Shown piece after piece: positions 1,867-63,680 of a stretch of 64,000 nucleotides of DNA. How positions within the stretch are numbered: position 1 is the first letter of the stretch; each line of letters begins with the position of its first letter. The stretch is from Stutzerimonas degradans (GTDB lineage Bacteria > Pseudomonadota > Gammaproteobacteria > Pseudomonadales > Pseudomonadaceae): assembly GCF_024448505.1 (NCBI RefSeq), contig NZ_JAMOHV010000004.1, positions 186,001 through 250,000 on the forward strand. The letters are read 5' to 3'. Under the pieces are notes generated by a model. The model was not told the DNA's origin, did not search any database, and was given only the letters and a program-made list of their open reading frames with translations. Made by a program: the position numbers and the translations under genes.

Positions 1867-4428
1867 TCAAGGTGTCCGACGTGCCAGTAGTGTCAGCAGT
1901 GCGTCGGCCGCCAGCGGCCGGCTCATATGGAAGCCCTGTACCTCGGTGCAGCCGTCGGCCTGCAGTAGGCGCAACTGCTCGGCGGTTTCCACACCCTCGG
2001 CGGTGACCTGCAGATTCAGCCCGCGTCCGAGATCGATCAGTGCGCGGACGATCGAGTGATCTTCGGCATTCTGCTGCATGCCGCCGACGAAGCTGGTATC
2101 GATCTTGATCACGTCGAACGGGTAGGTGCGCAGGTTGCTGAGCGACGAATAGCCCGTGCCGAAATCATCCATCGCCAGTCGCACGCCCAGCGCCTTGAGG
2201 CTGCTGAGCAGCGCCAGGGTGCCGGCGTTTTCCTGCAGCAGGGCGCTCTCGGTGATTTCCAGCTCCAGCCGGCTGGCGGGCAGGCCGCTTTCGGCCAACG
2301 CGGCCTTTACCTCATCCAGCAGTTGCTCATGGCGCAGCTGCAGCGGAGAAAGGTTGACCGAGACCACCAGACCGTCCGGCCAGGCTACGGCGTCGCGGCA
2401 GGCCTGGCGTAAAACCCAGTTGCCCAGCGTGGCGATCAGGCCGGTTTCTTCGGCGAGCGGGATGAACGACTCGGGCAACAGCAGCCCGCGTTCTGCATGC
2501 GGCCAGCGCAGCAGCGCCTCGGCGCCGATGATGTGCAAGCCCGCGCTGCGGTAGCGCGGCTGGTAATGAATTTCGAAACGTTCGTCGGCAATCGCCTGAC
2601 GCAGCTCGTCTTCCTGTCGATGGCGATCGTTGGCGCGATTGTCCAGTTCGCGCGTGTACGGATGCCAGATGCCGCGGCCGTTGGCCTTGGCCTGGTACAG
2701 CGCGATGTCGGCGCAGCGCAGCAGCTCGCTGGCCAGCAGGCCGTCGCCGGGCGCCACCGCGACGCCGATACTGGCGCCGACGTAGATCTTGTGTCCCTCG
2801 TAGAAGAACGGCTCGCTGATAGCGGCGATCACTCGCTCGCAAAGCCGCGCGATGTCCTCCGGCGCGCCCAGACGGCCGAGCACCATGACGAACTCGTCGC
2901 CTCCCAGGCGGGCCACCAGATCATCGTCGCGTGTGCATTGCTTGAGGCGCTGGGCGACCCCGATCAGCACCTCGTCGCCTGCGGCGTGGCCGAGTGTGTC
3001 GTTGACCGGCTTGAAGCGGTCCAGATCGAGATAGAGCACCGCCAGCCGGGAGGTGCCGCGCAGCGCCGCCAATCGGCCTTCCAGGTGGTCGCGCAGGCGG
3101 GCGCGGTTGGGCAGCCCGGTCAGCGCGTCATGTTGCGACAGATACTGGACGCGTGCCTGGGCACGGGTTTCCTCGGTGATGTCGCTCGCAGTGCCGCGAT
3201 AGCCGCGCAACTGGCCGTCATCGCGGATCGCCCGTGCGGCCAGCCGGCAATGCCGTTCGCGACCATCTGCATCGCGATAGCTGCATTTCAGCGCGTTTGC
3301 CTGTGGCGCCTGCAGCCACTCGTGCAGGGCGGCGTGGTCGCTGATCAGCAGGTTGATCAGCGGACGGCCGATCCAATTAGCCGGAGCGTGGCCGGTGATT
3401 TCTTCGAAACGACTGGAGAGGTAGGTCAGGTGCGCCTGTGCATCGGTTTCCCAGATCCAGTCGGAGGCCGCCTCGGCGACATCGCGAAAACGTGCCTCGC
3501 TGGCGCTCAGCTCGCGACTCTTGCTGGCCAGGCGGGCGTAGTTGGTGTCCATCATCTGCACCGTACGCAGCGCCAGACGCCCCAGCACCCAGATCAGCCC
3601 GCCCAGCGCCAGCGCCGCCAGCGCGAGCGTCGGTAGCGCTACCCAGAGCATCCGTCGTCCTGGCTGCGCGGGTTTCCAGGTCAAGGTCTGGGCGGTGCCG
3701 TCTTCCAGCGTCAGCGGCAGCTGTGGCGCCGTGCGCGGGGTGTCGGCATCCGCTACGCGCAGCGCGTCGACGGCGTAGTCCTGGCCGAGCTCGGCCAGGC
3801 GTGCGGTATCCAGCACATCGACGAACAGCACGATCGAGGCCGGCGTCGCGGCAGCCTTGACCGTGCTGTCTCCCGGCGACAGCACGGCCGCGGCCACCAT
3901 CGCCGGCGTGCCATCCACCGACAACAGGCCGACCACGCCCTGTTCGTGGTCGAACGCCAGGCGTGCGCGCGCCAGCAGCGGCTCCAGGCCGCCCTGCAAC
4001 CACCGGTAGGCGTCGACCGAGCGCAGCTCGCCGTCAATCACCGCATAGGACGTCTCGCCCTGCGGTGTCACCAGCAGCACGCCTTCATAGCCGAAGTCTT
4101 CGTACAGCGAGGCGCCGAAGTTGGCTTGCGTATAGGCCCAGTCGATGCTCACCGGGCCGTTGAGGTGCGCATAGGCATCACCCCAGAAGGCGTAGTCGAC
4201 CACCGAGCGGCCCATCCACTCGCGCTGCCCCTCGATGGCCTTGCCGGTGAGGAAGCGGCTTTGCGCAACGGCATCTTCATCGATGCTCGTGGCGATCCGG
4301 CTGACCGCGACGCTGGCGCCGAGCAGCGCGCAAAGCAGCACGCCAACTGCGCCGGGCAGTATGCGGCGGGTAAAAATGGCGCGGGCGTGGAGGCGGTTTT
4401 CTTCGATATCGGGCAGGGCTGCTGACAT
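1867..4428 (-). CDS. Membrane-bound GGDEF-EAL protein with CHASE4 and PAS sensor domains
   Basis: Predicted c-di-GMP enzyme of about 853 residues. Order: short cytoplasmic tail, transmembrane helix (about 25-43), periplasmic CHASE4 sensor with its DYAFWGDAY motif, second helix (about 265-290), PAS domain, GGDEF and EAL. The diguanylate cyclase motif RLGGDEF is intact, and an RxxD product-inhibition site (RDDD) lies exactly five residues before GGDEF. The EAL domain keeps EALLRW, and DDFGTGYSSL is also intact. Both synthesis and hydrolysis of c-di-GMP are therefore possible; net activity cannot be read from sequence. The in-frame ATG at 4428 is preferred over 4434; neither has a clear ribosome site. 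A 55-residue membrane protein lies upstream on the same strand. Confidence 0.93.
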   Translation of the reverse strand: MSAALPDIEENRLHARAIFTRRILPGAVGVLLCALLGASVAVSRIATSIDEDAVAQSRFLTGKAIEGQREWMGRSVVDYAFWGDAYAHLNGPVSIDWAYTQANFGASLYEDFGYEGVLLVTPQGETSYAVIDGELRSVDAYRWLQGGLEPLLARARLAFDHEQGVVGLLSVDGTPAMVAAAVLSPGDSTVKAAATPASIVLFVDVLDTARLAELGQDYAVDALRVADADTPRTAPQLPLTLEDGTAQTLTWKPAQPGRRMLWVALPTLALAALALGGLIWVLGRLALRTVQMMDTNYARLASKSRELSASEARFRDVAEAASDWIWETDAQAHLTYLSSRFEEITGHAPANWIGRPLINLLISDHAALHEWLQAPQANALKCSYRDADGRERHCRLAARAIRDDGQLRGYRGTASDITEETRAQARVQYLSQHDALTGLPNRARLRDHLEGRLAALRGTSRLAVLYLDLDRFKPVNDTLGHAAGDEVLIGVAQRLKQCTRDDDLVARLGGDEFVMVLGRLGAPEDIARLCERVIAAISEPFFYEGHKIYVGASIGVAVAPGDGLLASELLRCADIALYQAKANGRGIWHPYTRELDNRANDRHRQEDELRQAIADERFEIHYQPRYRSAGLHIIGAEALLRWPHAERGLLLPESFIPLAEETGLIATLGNWVLRQACRDAVAWPDGLVVSVNLSPLQLRHEQLLDEVKAALAESGLPASRLELEITESALLQENAGTLALLSSLKALGVRLAMDDFGTGYSSLSNLRTYPFDVIKIDTSFVGGMQQNAEDHSIVRALIDLGRGLNLQVTAEGVETAEQLRLLQADGCTEVQGFHMSRPLAADALLTLLARRTP

Positions 4429-4565
4429 GCACATTCATCTGGAGGGAAAGGAAAAATCGGCGCAGCGATCCGGACAGGCGCTGCCACCGATGAGCGTGTC
4501 GTGCTTCCTTTCACCTCGCCGAACGTGCGGCGATTGCGATGCTGCAGCCGCAGCGGCGACCGGGT

Positions 4566-5614: not shown

Positions 5615-6613
5615 TCAGCCGACCTTGAGCACCAGCTTGCCGAAGTTCTCGCCGCTGAAGAGCTTCAACAGGGTTTCGGGGAAGGTTTCCAGGCCCTCGA
5701 CGACGTCCTCCTTGCTCTTCAGCTGGCCGCTGGCCAGCCAGCCGGCCATCTCGCGCATCGCCTCCGGGTAACGAGCCATATAGTCGGTCACCACCATGCC
5801 TTCCATGCGCGCACGGTTGACCAGTAGCGACAGGTAGTTCGCCGGTCCCTTGACCGCCTCCTTGTTGTTGTACTGACTGATCGCGCCGCACAGCACCACT
5901 CGCGCACCGACGTTGATGCGAGTGAGCACGGCGTCGAGGATGTCGCCGCCGACGTTGTCGAAATAGACGTCCACACCCTGCGGGCATTCGCGCTTCAGGC
6001 CCGCGGCCAGGTCCTCGTGCTTGTAGTCGATGGCACCGTCGAAGCCCAGTTCCTCGGTGAGGAAGCGACACTTGTCGGCGCCGCCGGCGATGCCCACTAC
6101 CTTGCAGCCTTTTATCTTGGCGATCTGCCCGGCCACGCTGCCCACCGCGCCGGCAGCGCCGGACAGCACCACGGTATCGCCGGCCTTCGGCTGGCCGACG
6201 GCGAGCAGGGCGAAGTAGGCGGTCATGCCGGTCATGCCCAGCGCCGACAGGTAGCGCGGCAGCGGCGCCTGCTGCGGGTCGACCTTGTAGAAGCCTTTCG
6301 GCTCGCCGCGAAAGTACTTCTGCACACCCAGCGGACCATTCACGTAGTCGCCGACGGCGAAGCCCGGATGCTGCGAGGCGATCACCTTGCCGACGCCGAG
6401 CGCGCGCATCACCTCGCCGAGGCCCACCGGCGCAATGTACGACTTGCCTTCGTTCATCCAGCCGCGCATGGCCGGATCGATGGACAGGTATTCGACCTGC
6501 ACCAGAATTTCGTTGGGGCCGGGCTCACCGGTGTCGGCCTCGGCAAAGCGGAAGGTGTCGCGCGTTGGCGCGCCGATCGGTCGCTGGGCCAGCAGGTACT
6601 GTTGATTGAGCAT
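5615..6613 (-). CDS. NADP-dependent medium-chain oxidoreductase, zinc-independent (CurA/leukotriene B4 dehydrogenase-like)
   Basis: A 332-residue medium-chain dehydrogenase/reductase of the type that reduces activated double bonds of enones or prostaglandin-like substrates with NADPH. The N-terminus NQQYLLAQRPIG and the segment DPAMRGWM are typical of the subfamily. The Rossmann motif reads VLSGAAGAVGSVAGQIAK, followed by AGGADKCRFLTEELGFDGAI. No zinc-ligand set is seen. The start at 6613 is chosen because the family begins there; an upstream in-frame extension to 6676 looks non-coding. It is divergent from the SDR gene with a 210-base gap. The physiological substrate cannot be deduced. Confidence 0.9.
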   Translation of the reverse strand: MLNQQYLLAQRPIGAPTRDTFRFAEADTGEPGPNEILVQVEYLSIDPAMRGWMNEGKSYIAPVGLGEVMRALGVGKVIASQHPGFAVGDYVNGPLGVQKYFRGEPKGFYKVDPQQAPLPRYLSALGMTGMTAYFALLAVGQPKAGDTVVLSGAAGAVGSVAGQIAKIKGCKVVGIAGGADKCRFLTEELGFDGAIDYKHEDLAAGLKRECPQGVDVYFDNVGGDILDAVLTRINVGARVVLCGAISQYNNKEAVKGPANYLSLLVNRARMEGMVVTDYMARYPEAMREMAGWLASGQLKSKEDVVEGLETFPETLLKLFSGENFGKLVLKVG

Positions 6614-61542: not shown

Positions 61543-61618
61543 GTCCCCTTCGTCTAGTGGCCTAGGACACCGCCCTTTCACGGCGGTAACAGGGGTTCGA
61601 GTCCCCTAGGGGACGCCA
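61543..61618 (+). tRNA. tRNA-Glu (anticodon TTC)
   Basis: 76 bases including encoded CCA. Acceptor GTCCCC pairs with GGGGAC, the anticodon stem CCGCC/GGCGG encloses CTTTCAC (anticodon TTC), and the T arm AGGGG-TTCGAGT-CCCCT is regular. Confidence 0.98.
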
Positions 61619-61623
61619 AGTTT

Positions 61624-61699
<76 letters not shown>

Positions 61700-61831: not shown

Positions 61832-62116
61832 TCAGGTGTACTTGGTGAAGATGCTGCGCACACGCTCCAGTGCGGCCGCCGTGTCCTGTTCCTGATCGTG
61901 TAGCGCCTCCTCGAGCAGGCAGGTCAGCATCAGCCTATAGGCCTTATCCAGTGCGCTGCGGGCTGCCGAGAACTGCTGAGCGATGGCCTCGCATTCCTCG
62001 CCGCGCTTGATCATCGCCTGAATGCCGCGAATCTGGCCTTCGACCCGGGCCAGCCGTTTGAGCATGGCCTGCTGCTGGTCCTGCATGTCGATCGACGTTA
62101 TTGCCTGGTCTTCCAT
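61832..62116 (-). CDS. CsoR/FrmR-family (DUF156) transcriptional repressor
   Basis: A 94-residue all-helical repressor. The family core is clear: LKRLARVEGQIRGIQAMIKRGEECEAIAQQ, seen as RLARVEGQIRGIQAMIKRG followed by ECEAIAQQFSAARSALDKAY. The first sensing Cys (Cys42) is in place. The second family Cys position appears to be Ala, while a Cys (Cys66) sits about five residues earlier and the usual His before it is absent. The ligand could be a metal, aldehyde or persulfide; the neighbouring sulfur-type genes favour the last, as inference. gaggtg precedes the ATG at 62116. It is divergent from the ArsR gene. Confidence 0.85.
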   Translation of the reverse strand: MEDQAITSIDMQDQQQAMLKRLARVEGQIRGIQAMIKRGEECEAIAQQFSAARSALDKAYRLMLTCLLEEALHDQEQDTAAALERVRSIFTKYT

Positions 62117-62252
62117 CAATCACCTCGGCGGGAAGAAACGAACAGAGCGCCCGGCGCGAGTACGTTTTGCGTGGGTCGGTCATATACCGGTAGGGGCATC
62201 CTAGCGATGGCAACGAGCGTTGACCACCGCTGTGTTGACAAGTGGGTCACCA

Positions 62253-62280
62253 AACAATATAGATATAAATATATTGTTTT
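62253..62280. promoter_or_regulatory. AT-rich palindrome AAACAATATA-N8-TATATTGTTT, candidate ArsR/BigR-type operator
   Basis: Perfect ten-base arms around an eight-base centre, ending 17 bases before the ArsR start codon and lying in the divergent region with the CsoR-type gene. AT-rich palindromes overlapping the promoter are the known sites of BigR/SqrR repressors. It contrasts sharply with the GC-rich surroundings. Confidence 0.75.
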
Positions 62281-62297
62281 TTTTGAAGGTGTTTCTT

Positions 62298-62621
62298 GTG
62301 ACGCTTGCTTCCGCTGAATTGGATATCCAACGCCTGCGTGACAGCGCGGCGGCGGCAGGGCAGCTGCTGCGAACGCTCGCGAATCCGGACCGACTGTTGC
62401 TGCTGTGTCAGTTGAGCCAGGGCGAGCGCAATGTCAGCGACATGGAGCAGTTGCTGGGCATCCAGCAGCCGACGCTGTCGCAACAGCTCGCGGTGCTGCG
62501 GCGCGAGGGGTTGGTGGAAACCCGTCGTGATGGCAAACAGATCTTCTACCGCATCAGCAGTCCCGAGGCGCTGGCGGTCATCGCCACCCTCTACCAACTT
62601 TTCTGCGGGAGCGAGCAATGA
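62298..62621 (+). CDS. ArsR-family repressor of the BigR/SqrR/YgaV type
   Basis: A 107-residue winged-helix repressor. The wHTH reads NVSDMEQLLGIQQPTLSQQL with the wing ETRRDGKQIFYRIS. Two cysteines, Cys37 in LLLLCQLSQGER and Cys103 in LYQLFC near the C-terminus, match the pair that forms a persulfide-sensing link in BigR, SqrR and YgaV. The GTG at 62298 is eight bases after gaagg; other in-frame starts lie upstream. Its stop overlaps the first YeeE/YedE gene, so it leads that operon. Confidence 0.85.
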   Translation: MTLASAELDIQRLRDSAAAAGQLLRTLANPDRLLLLCQLSQGERNVSDMEQLLGIQQPTLSQQLAVLRREGLVETRRDGKQIFYRISSPEALAVIATLYQLFCGSEQ

Positions 62622-63052
62622 CTATCGATTGGGTCAATTTCACCCCTTGGTCGGCCTTGGCCGGCGGCGCGCTGATCGGGCTGGCAGCTGCTCTGTTCGT
62701 CATGCTGAACGGCCGCATTGCCGGCATCAGCGGCCTGCTCGCCAGCCTGCTGGAGCGCAACGCGGAGGGGCGGGGCGAGAAGGCGCTGTTCCTGCTCGGT
62801 ATCCTGCTGGCGCCGTTGCTGTGGTTGATAGCCGGCGAATGGCCGCAGATGGAATTCCAGACCAATTGGCTTGGCCTGCTGATCGCCGGCGTGCTGGTAG
62901 GTGTAGGGACGCGCTATGGCGCGGGCTGCACCAGCGGTCACGGCGTTTGCGGTATTTCACGCCTCTCGGCGCGTTCTATCGTCGCGACCCTGGCCTTCAT
63001 GGCCGCAGGATTCGCGACCGTTTTCGTCATTCGCCACCTTGTCGGAGCTTGA
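62618..63052 (+). CDS. YeeE/YedE-family half-transporter, PmpA-like
   Basis: A 144-residue membrane protein with about four helices. The YeeE/YedE motif RYGAGCTSGHGVCGISRLS is present with its two cysteines, which in thiosulfate transporters of this family contact sulfur. It starts on the stop codon of the ArsR gene. Together with the next gene it forms the two-part PmpAB-like arrangement seen in bigR operons. Thiosulfate or another reduced sulfur species as substrate is inference. Confidence 0.87.
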   Translation: MTIDWVNFTPWSALAGGALIGLAAALFVMLNGRIAGISGLLASLLERNAEGRGEKALFLLGILLAPLLWLIAGEWPQMEFQTNWLGLLIAGVLVGVGTRYGAGCTSGHGVCGISRLSARSIVATLAFMAAGFATVFVIRHLVGA

Positions 63053-63054
63053 AC

Positions 63055-63474
63055 ATGCGCAAGCTGACTGCATTTGCCGCGGGTCTGCTGTTCGGTATCG
63101 GTCTGCTGCTTTCGGGCATGGCCAATCCGGCCAAGGTGATCGGTTTTCTCGACCTGGCGGGCGTCTGGGATCCCTCACTGGCGCTGGTGATGGCCGGTGC
63201 CATCGCAGTGGCGCTGTTGCCGTTCGGCTGGGCGCGACGCCGCCATGTCTCGCTGCTCGATGCACCGATGCGCTTGCCGGAAAAGCGTGAGCTGGATCGG
63301 CGCCTGATCGGCGGCAGCCTACTGTTCGGCATTGGCTGGGGTATCGCCGGCATCTGTCCCGGTCCGGCGCTGGCGATGCTGCTGTCCGGGCGCTGGCAGG
63401 TCGCGCTGTTCGTCGTGGCGATGCTGGGCGGAATGTTGCTCTTCACTGCGCTGGAAAGCCGGCGCGCGCACTGA
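63055..63474 (+). CDS. YeeE/YedE-family half-transporter (DUF6691), PmpB-like
   Basis: A 139-residue membrane protein with about four helices: LTAFAAGLLFGIGLLLSGMA, NPAKVIGFLDLAGVWDPSLA and the second-half motif GIGWGIAGICPGPALAML with its single conserved cysteine. It starts two bases after the preceding gene's stop and should pair with it to form one transporter. Confidence 0.87.
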   Translation: MRKLTAFAAGLLFGIGLLLSGMANPAKVIGFLDLAGVWDPSLALVMAGAIAVALLPFGWARRRHVSLLDAPMRLPEKRELDRRLIGGSLLFGIGWGIAGICPGPALAMLLSGRWQVALFVVAMLGGMLLFTALESRRAH

Positions 63475-63488
63475 CCTTGGAGGTCATC

Positions 63489-63680
63489 ATGAAAGCCAAT
63501 GTGGGAACAATCGATCGTACGGTGCGGATAGTCGTCGGGCTGTTACTGATCGGCCTGACGCTGGGCGGCGTGATCGGCATGTGGGGCTGGATCGGCCTGC
63601 TACCGCTCGCGACCGGCATCTTCCGCTTCTGCCCGGCATACGGTCTGCTGGGCATCAAGACCTGCAAGCTGCGCCATTGA
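63489..63680 (+). CDS. DUF2892 small membrane protein (63 aa)
   Basis: Two hydrophobic helices: MKANVGTIDRTVRIVVGLLL, then GGVIGMWGWIGLLPLATGIF, ending FCPAYGLLGIKTCKLRH with two cysteines. This resembles the DUF2892 membrane part found alone or fused to rhodanese in YgaP-like proteins, again a sulfur-associated family. ttggagg lies just upstream of the ATG. It is 14 bases from the second YeeE/YedE gene and probably ends that operon. Confidence 0.82.
   Translation: MKANVGTIDRTVRIVVGLLLIGLTLGGVIGMWGWIGLLPLATGIFRFCPAYGLLGIKTCKLRH

Follow-up and report, generated by a model that had tools for sequence, protein, structure and literature searches.

The closest described systems to the locus studied here involve two repressor families. 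In the ArsR family, BigR has the reference cysteine pair Cys42/Cys108 (PMC5823870), and BigR of Acinetobacter baumannii controls two YeeE/YedE genes (PMC7315123). PmpA and PmpB are half-size members of the latter transporter family (PMC11582611), and YedE1E2 of Cupriavidus pinatubonensis is reported to import zero-valent sulfur (PMC10812762). In the CsoR family, TTHA1953 of Thermus thermophilus is a thiol switch over sulfur oxidation, the disulfide-linked dimers of which show weaker DNA binding (PMC10318464).

The window, i.e. the whole stretch of 64,000 nucleotides of Stutzerimonas degradans that was analyzed, carries members of both families close to its right end, in the divergent arrangement reported by an initial annotation made from the sequence alone. 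Genes were assigned by homology searches; longest-ORF calling gave antisense artefacts. On the minus strand, positions 61832-62116 (with a possible TTG start at 62119) encode a CsoR/DUF156-family repressor of a clade having Cys42 and Cys66, which matches PF02583 with 72.7 bits against a cut-off of 22.8 and is the only DUF156 match in the 4.0 Mb genome. An intergenic region of 181 bp separates csoR from the gene of an ArsR-family repressor of the BigR/SqrR type on the plus strand (62298-62621), whose reading frame overlaps that of the first of two half transporters, a PmpA/YedE1-like Sulf_transp protein of 144 aa with Cys104 and Cys111 (62618-63052); a PmpB/YedE2-like DUF6691 protein of 139 aa with Cys101 (63055-63474) and a DUF2892/YgaP-like transmembrane protein (63489-63680) follow on the same strand. 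Family matches confirm the annotated operon of two YeeE/YedE halves and a DUF2892 protein led by ArsR. Genes for tRNA-Glu and tRNA-Gly (61543-61699) lie immediately behind csoR.

The BigR/SqrR cysteine pair claimed for the ArsR protein is present as Cys37 and Cys103, 66 residues apart, a spacing equal to that of the BigR pair. Its closest solved relative is a "biofilm growth-associated repressor" (BigR, known from Xylella; 2.3e-26); the NCBIfam BigR equivalog is still the top-scoring family for this protein, with 108.4 bits that fall below the cut-off of 155. The transporter pair likewise has the defining features of PmpAB/YedE1E2 (PMC11582611, PMC10812762): both halves are short, they lie next to each other, and each has a conserved Cys. 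Orthologous loci with at least 70% identity number 39 (L002-L040, counting that of the window genome); pmpAB lie near csoR in 33 of them, and in 27 ArsR does too. Most of the closest relatives with a name are Stutzerimonas. This neighbourhood, the conserved sites presented below and published work on BigR and YedE1E2 give good support to a sulfane-sulfur locus that has two thiol repressors.

The usual persulfide dioxygenase or SQR had been thought missing, which for the dioxygenase is true within the window alone: the genome has it beside a rhodanese. The dioxygenase gene lies on the minus strand at C4:250713-251558 (about 64.7-65.6 kb in window coordinates); 707 bp separate its 3' end from the right edge, so that it seemed to be missing because the window edge cut it off; the rhodanese gene, also on the minus strand, stands between it and the DUF2892 operon. 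The protein matches the dioxygenase half of Blh (NF040641 positions 142-423, 1.5e-121), its 406 bits falling below a cut-off of 625 bits that was set for the two-domain protein. As for SQR, the fused SQR of relatives had no match in the window genome; a type III SQR model gave weak partial matches only, and is a weak test because it matches 14 of 14 control genomes below its cut-off as well. In most sister species the equivalent position is occupied by dioxygenase, SQR, SulP and rhodanese genes in that order, which converge on DUF2892-pmpB-pmpA-arsR, csoR following behind; of the 21 named loci that bear pmpAB, 16 have the SQR at this position. Both SQR and SulP are absent at this place from the window genome and from S. 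stutzeri TS44 (L099), presumably through loss.

Alignment of 24 distinct csoR-arsR intergenic sequences, derived from 47 loci (identical sequences occur in L020/L060, L028/L069 and L029/L072), revealed two conserved blocks. Block 2, ACAATATA-N8-TATATTGT, is the AT-rich palindrome noticed previously; in the window it is perfect (62254-62277, no strand), spans the putative arsR -10 (TATAGA, 62258-62263, plus strand, with TTGACA at 62235-62240 as putative -35), has no other match in the genome even when 3 mismatches are allowed, and constitutes the predicted BigR-type operator. Block 1, ATRCCCC-N5-GTAT, lies over the putative csoR promoter and reads ATGCCCCTACCGGTAT on the csoR strand of the window (62184-62199, minus strand), where this predicted CsoR-type operator overlaps the putative csoR -10 (TAGGAT, 62198-62203, with TGGTCA at 62221-62226 as putative -35, both on the minus strand). 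The -10 and -35 boxes were placed by eye; a consensus promoter scan found no promoter. Of the 24 distinct sequences, 22 fit AT[AG]CCC-N6-GTAT, and the other two are without a csoR-promoter site. Just past the window, the dioxygenase promoter has a site of the same type, ATACCCCGCGGGGTAT.

These two blocks led us to reject a single shared palindrome. The suggestion that two sensors surround one palindrome and bring two signals to one operon is unsupported, because each putative promoter has its own site and because the CsoR-type motif is commonest before the dioxygenase (see below). We rather favor, with a probability of about 0.72, a split regulon in which the CsoR-type protein would control sulfane-sulfur oxidation and itself, and BigR the importer. 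Both sites do lie, conserved and at a distance of 54 bp from each other, in one 181-bp region, as would be expected if both repressors acted jointly on the pmpAB operon and integrated two signals there; however, the CsoR-type site of the window overlaps the putative -10 of csoR and not the arsR promoter, the same motif stands at the dioxygenase promoter, and two loci (L033 and L034) have lost the intergenic site and kept that of the dioxygenase. We thus regard joint control as unlikely.

The motif used for counting, ATACYCCNNGGRGTAT, was first picked by visual inspection of upstream sequences, some from other Pseudomonas loci and one from the dioxygenase gene of the window genome. Allowing at most 1 mismatch, it was found at 39 sites in 68 loci, a set which holds duplicate genomes (L034/L075, also in the later dioxygenase set, and L035/L081), while 60 permuted palindromes gave a mean of 0.38 and a maximum of 5. 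Sixteen of the sites stand before the dioxygenase, 8 before csoR, 5 before cydA and 10 elsewhere. The only perfect match in the whole genome is just before the dioxygenase. Genome matches with 1-2 mismatches resembled a reversed control (8 vs 5 per strand, perfect one included) and, not being clearly above it, were discarded as operators; the match at C7:1072 falls inside a coding frame, presumably ccoP-like. Another pattern, ATACSGGTRGGGGCAT, had one exact and six 2-mismatch matches, and was informative only once read on the other strand. The csoR site of the window is one letter off the dioxygenase site of four genomes (G012, G018, G032 and G051).

We then compared 17 genomes having csoR with 16 Stutzerimonas and 6 genomes from other genera lacking it, six of the 16 showing weak CsoR-family matches only, with E above 1e-9. 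A dioxygenase orthologue is encoded in 17/17 csoR-positive genomes and in 1/16 csoR-negative Stutzerimonas (G011). The palindrome precedes the dioxygenase in all 17 csoR-positive genomes, starting 31-42 nt ahead of the start codon (1 mismatch in 7, 2 in 8 and 3 in 2), and is absent from the 5 csoR-negative orthologues (G011 plus four of other genera) and from all 4 dioxygenase paralogues, of 47-53% identity. The co-occurrence of site and csoR yields a Fisher p = 1.5e-8, with the relatedness of the genomes ignored. In a second csoR-positive set, overlapping the first in genomes, the palindrome was found at 17 of 19 dioxygenase starts, up to 3 mismatches being allowed. Genes, sites, their conservation and this co-occurrence are direct results of the computation. 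Since site and csoR are inherited together, and binding by the CsoR-type protein is a prediction, the dioxygenase palindrome might be bound by another regulator that merely follows the csoR lineage; we find this highly unlikely, given that the same motif stands before csoR itself in seven loci (L042, L043, L079, L080, L083, L084 and L085), L042 and L043 belonging to other families of the order, and that no second DUF156 protein is encoded in the genome.

The two misses of the second set, L039 (genome G009) and L040 (genome G008), have no site directly before the dioxygenase. The dioxygenase gene comes second in L039, behind SulP; L040 gave no SulP match and has 1.3 kb between dioxygenase and pmpA. 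Both loci lack ArsR and have lost the AT palindrome, and neither genome has a BigR homologue better than 34 bits. Instead, ATACCCCCTATGGTAT, a perfect ATRCCCC-N5-GTAT, is found about 84 bp before pmpA (L039:7526-7541 and L040:4193-4208), an apparent regulator swap at the importer, judging from the sites. Evidently pmpAB can be put under the CsoR-type regulator, which speaks for joint control to the extent that these ArsR-lacking genomes are concerned. Four other genomes without a local ArsR (G027, G031, G034 and G039) all keep the AT palindrome, and all have a BigR homologue of 58-59% identity elsewhere, while the palindrome is absent in both ArsR-lacking genomes without such a homologue. Taken with the pattern of site and csoR, each site therefore tends to follow its proposed regulator, in agreement with a split regulon. 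The distant homologue may act in trans on the AT palindrome, but in L201, L203 and L204 it adjoins another dioxygenase (31% identity) at some 6 kb from tsdBA, and the best palindrome at the homologue's own promoter has 4 mismatches.

A third CsoR-type site of the window genome, ATGCCCCTGGGGGTAT, lies at C2:144966-144981 (L142; L202:4967), about 150 bp before tsdBA, encoding a thiosulfate dehydrogenase with a SoxA/TsdA domain match. With at most 1 mismatch the site occurs in 4 of 29 tsdB loci (L172, from the own genome, L173, L175 and L176); tsdBA was therefore rejected as a general target and is a lineage-limited one.

Two further elements were observed in relatives. CsoR-type palindromes before cydA (cytochrome bd oxidase) are present in L074, L093, L096 and L097, in several Pseudomonas, which suggests that the regulon has a branch in respiration. 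In 15 of 22 loci (L206-L213 and L215-L221), two of them without csoR (L218 and L221), the dioxygenase start is preceded at 73-85 nt by another element, CTAA(G/C)(C/T)ATA(T/G)AAC, which is not found in the window genome and is perhaps an activator site.

In 46 of 53 named loci, one or more of the scored families lie no further than about 6 kb from csoR, some of the contigs ending early: rhodanese in 34, SulP in 32, dioxygenase in 29, DUF2892 in 25, pmpAB and SQR in 21 each, ArsR in 18, rhodanese-YgaP in 7, TauE in 6 and cydA in 4. No scored gene was near csoR in the remaining seven (L077, L078, L091, L092, L094, L100 and L101). CstR controls sulfane-sulfur genes from a GC-rich palindrome; for the window protein such control is a prediction from the sites and neighbours. 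L101, a metagenome contig, has two CsoR-type matches less than 2 kb apart (4364-4537 and 6001-6264). In L066, L070, L086, L095 and L097, inspection by eye showed csoR to be preceded, often by few bases, by a frame that ends close to a CxxCH-like motif and is a possible partner of it.

Orthologues of the CsoR-type protein with at least 70% identity were found in 39 of 145 related genomes. Cys42 and Cys66, with a spacing of 24, are conserved in 60 of 62 distinct aligned proteins from L001-L101, the other two rows being canonical outgroup proteins. A wider profile search of 369 genomes from the class gave matches at 1e-10 in 24, and of 13 loci read among those 24, six have the Cys pair (L149-L154), with dioxygenase (L151), cydA (L152), SulP and SoxB (L153) or SQR (L154) seen by eye to adjoin; the second Cys is missing from L155, L156-L160 have a canonical look, and a pattern search of L163 found no CsoR frame. 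In a phylogenetic tree the clade plus L155 is split from nine canonical sequences with support of 100/99, several branches being long, including that of Streptococcus pneumoniae CstR; a single partial CstR was in the tree.

Metal sites of the InrS type, that of CsoR included, are Cys-His-Cys. In an ungapped alignment Cys42 corresponds to the first Cys of both S. pneumoniae CstR (PDB 7mq1), which shares the fold, and InrS. Cys66 falls one residue before the position of the family's His/Asn, the His of InrS corresponds to Leu67, and the second Cys of InrS and of CstR to Ala71, so that two cysteines 29 residues apart, as in CstR, are not found. The CsoR family has copper, nickel and formaldehyde sensors, and the protein could sense a metal or formaldehyde, its sulfur neighbours being historical and BigR the sole persulfide sensor; the predicted monomer (mean pLDDT 84, pTM 0.65) matches InrS, FrmR, CsoR and CstR chains alike, with E <= 0.001 for two InrS chains only. 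Nevertheless, the His and second Cys of an InrS-type site are missing (alignments to copper CsoR being partial), sulfur-gene neighbours recur and the operator tracks the dioxygenase, which makes a metal or formaldehyde sensor very unlikely in our view. Helix 42-73 is unbroken in the model, which would place Cys42 and Cys66 ~36 Å apart within one chain (24 residues x 1.5 Å, by arithmetic). The CsoR dimer is antiparallel. At that distance a Cys42-Cys66 contact would be between subunits, and an inter-subunit Cys42-Cys66' pair differing from that of CstR is predicted. To our knowledge, no characterised CsoR-family member uses this bridge position.

According to the split-regulon model, the BigR-type ArsR would repress its own operon (PmpA-PmpB and the YgaP-like protein) through the AT-rich palindrome at the putative arsR promoter, and the CsoR-type protein would repress itself from block 1 and, as its main target, the dioxygenase-rhodanese pair. 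Persulfide or polysulfide would bridge Cys37 and Cys103 in BigR; in the CsoR-type protein the bridge would run from Cys42 of one subunit to Cys66 of the partner subunit, and both repressors would leave the DNA. Sulfane-sulfur import and oxidation to sulfite would then rise together through independently tuned sensors. Binding, inducer, disulfide chemistry and transport substrate are what we infer here from the genes and sites. More broadly, and with only slightly better than even odds, we propose a further thiol-sensor class in the CsoR family, present in several gammaproteobacterial families: a persulfide sensor with a Cys42-Cys66' inter-subunit switch that would control the genes of dioxygenase, SQR, rhodanese and cytochrome bd, and also those of thiosulfate dehydrogenase in some lineages, with a co-located BigR separately controlling import and a CsoR-type site taking over the importer where BigR is lost.

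The locus is a real, conserved sulfur locus, more interesting on its CsoR side than the initial annotation had it, and ordinary as to the claimed enzyme absence and the shared palindrome. Among the matches listed in a search of open-licence literature, neither a Cys42/Cys66 clade of CsoR nor a CsoR-type regulator of a Pseudomonas dioxygenase was described, though either may be described elsewhere, and none of them assigned a regulator to the Pseudomonas-type dioxygenase operon. For this operon a concrete regulator, an operator and a testable cysteine pair are now proposed, and a design is suggested in which sulfane-sulfur import and oxidation are under different sensors, two genomes (G008 and G009) representing a natural operator swap. 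The locus may also serve to test how a CsoR fold can change from a metal sensor into a sulfur sensor when its cysteines are displaced.

Among described systems, YedE1E2 of C. pinatubonensis also consists of two half transporters adjoining an ArsR gene, and its essential Cys104 and Cys101 (PMC10812762) have identical numbers in the window pair, for which transport is a prediction. On the CsoR side, TTHA1953 differs from the window protein in having Cys39/Cys68, with a spacing of 29, a consensus TACNNTACNNNNGTANNGTA without a G/C run, and targets distant from its own gene (PMC10318464). The nearest precedent for two persulfide systems is A. baumannii, which also has two independent persulfide-sensing systems per cell; however, its dioxygenase is inside the BigR operon (yeeE-yedE-pdo2) and its second sensor is the sigma-54 activator FisR, whereas in the window genome a CsoR-type site is found at the dioxygenase (PMC7315123).
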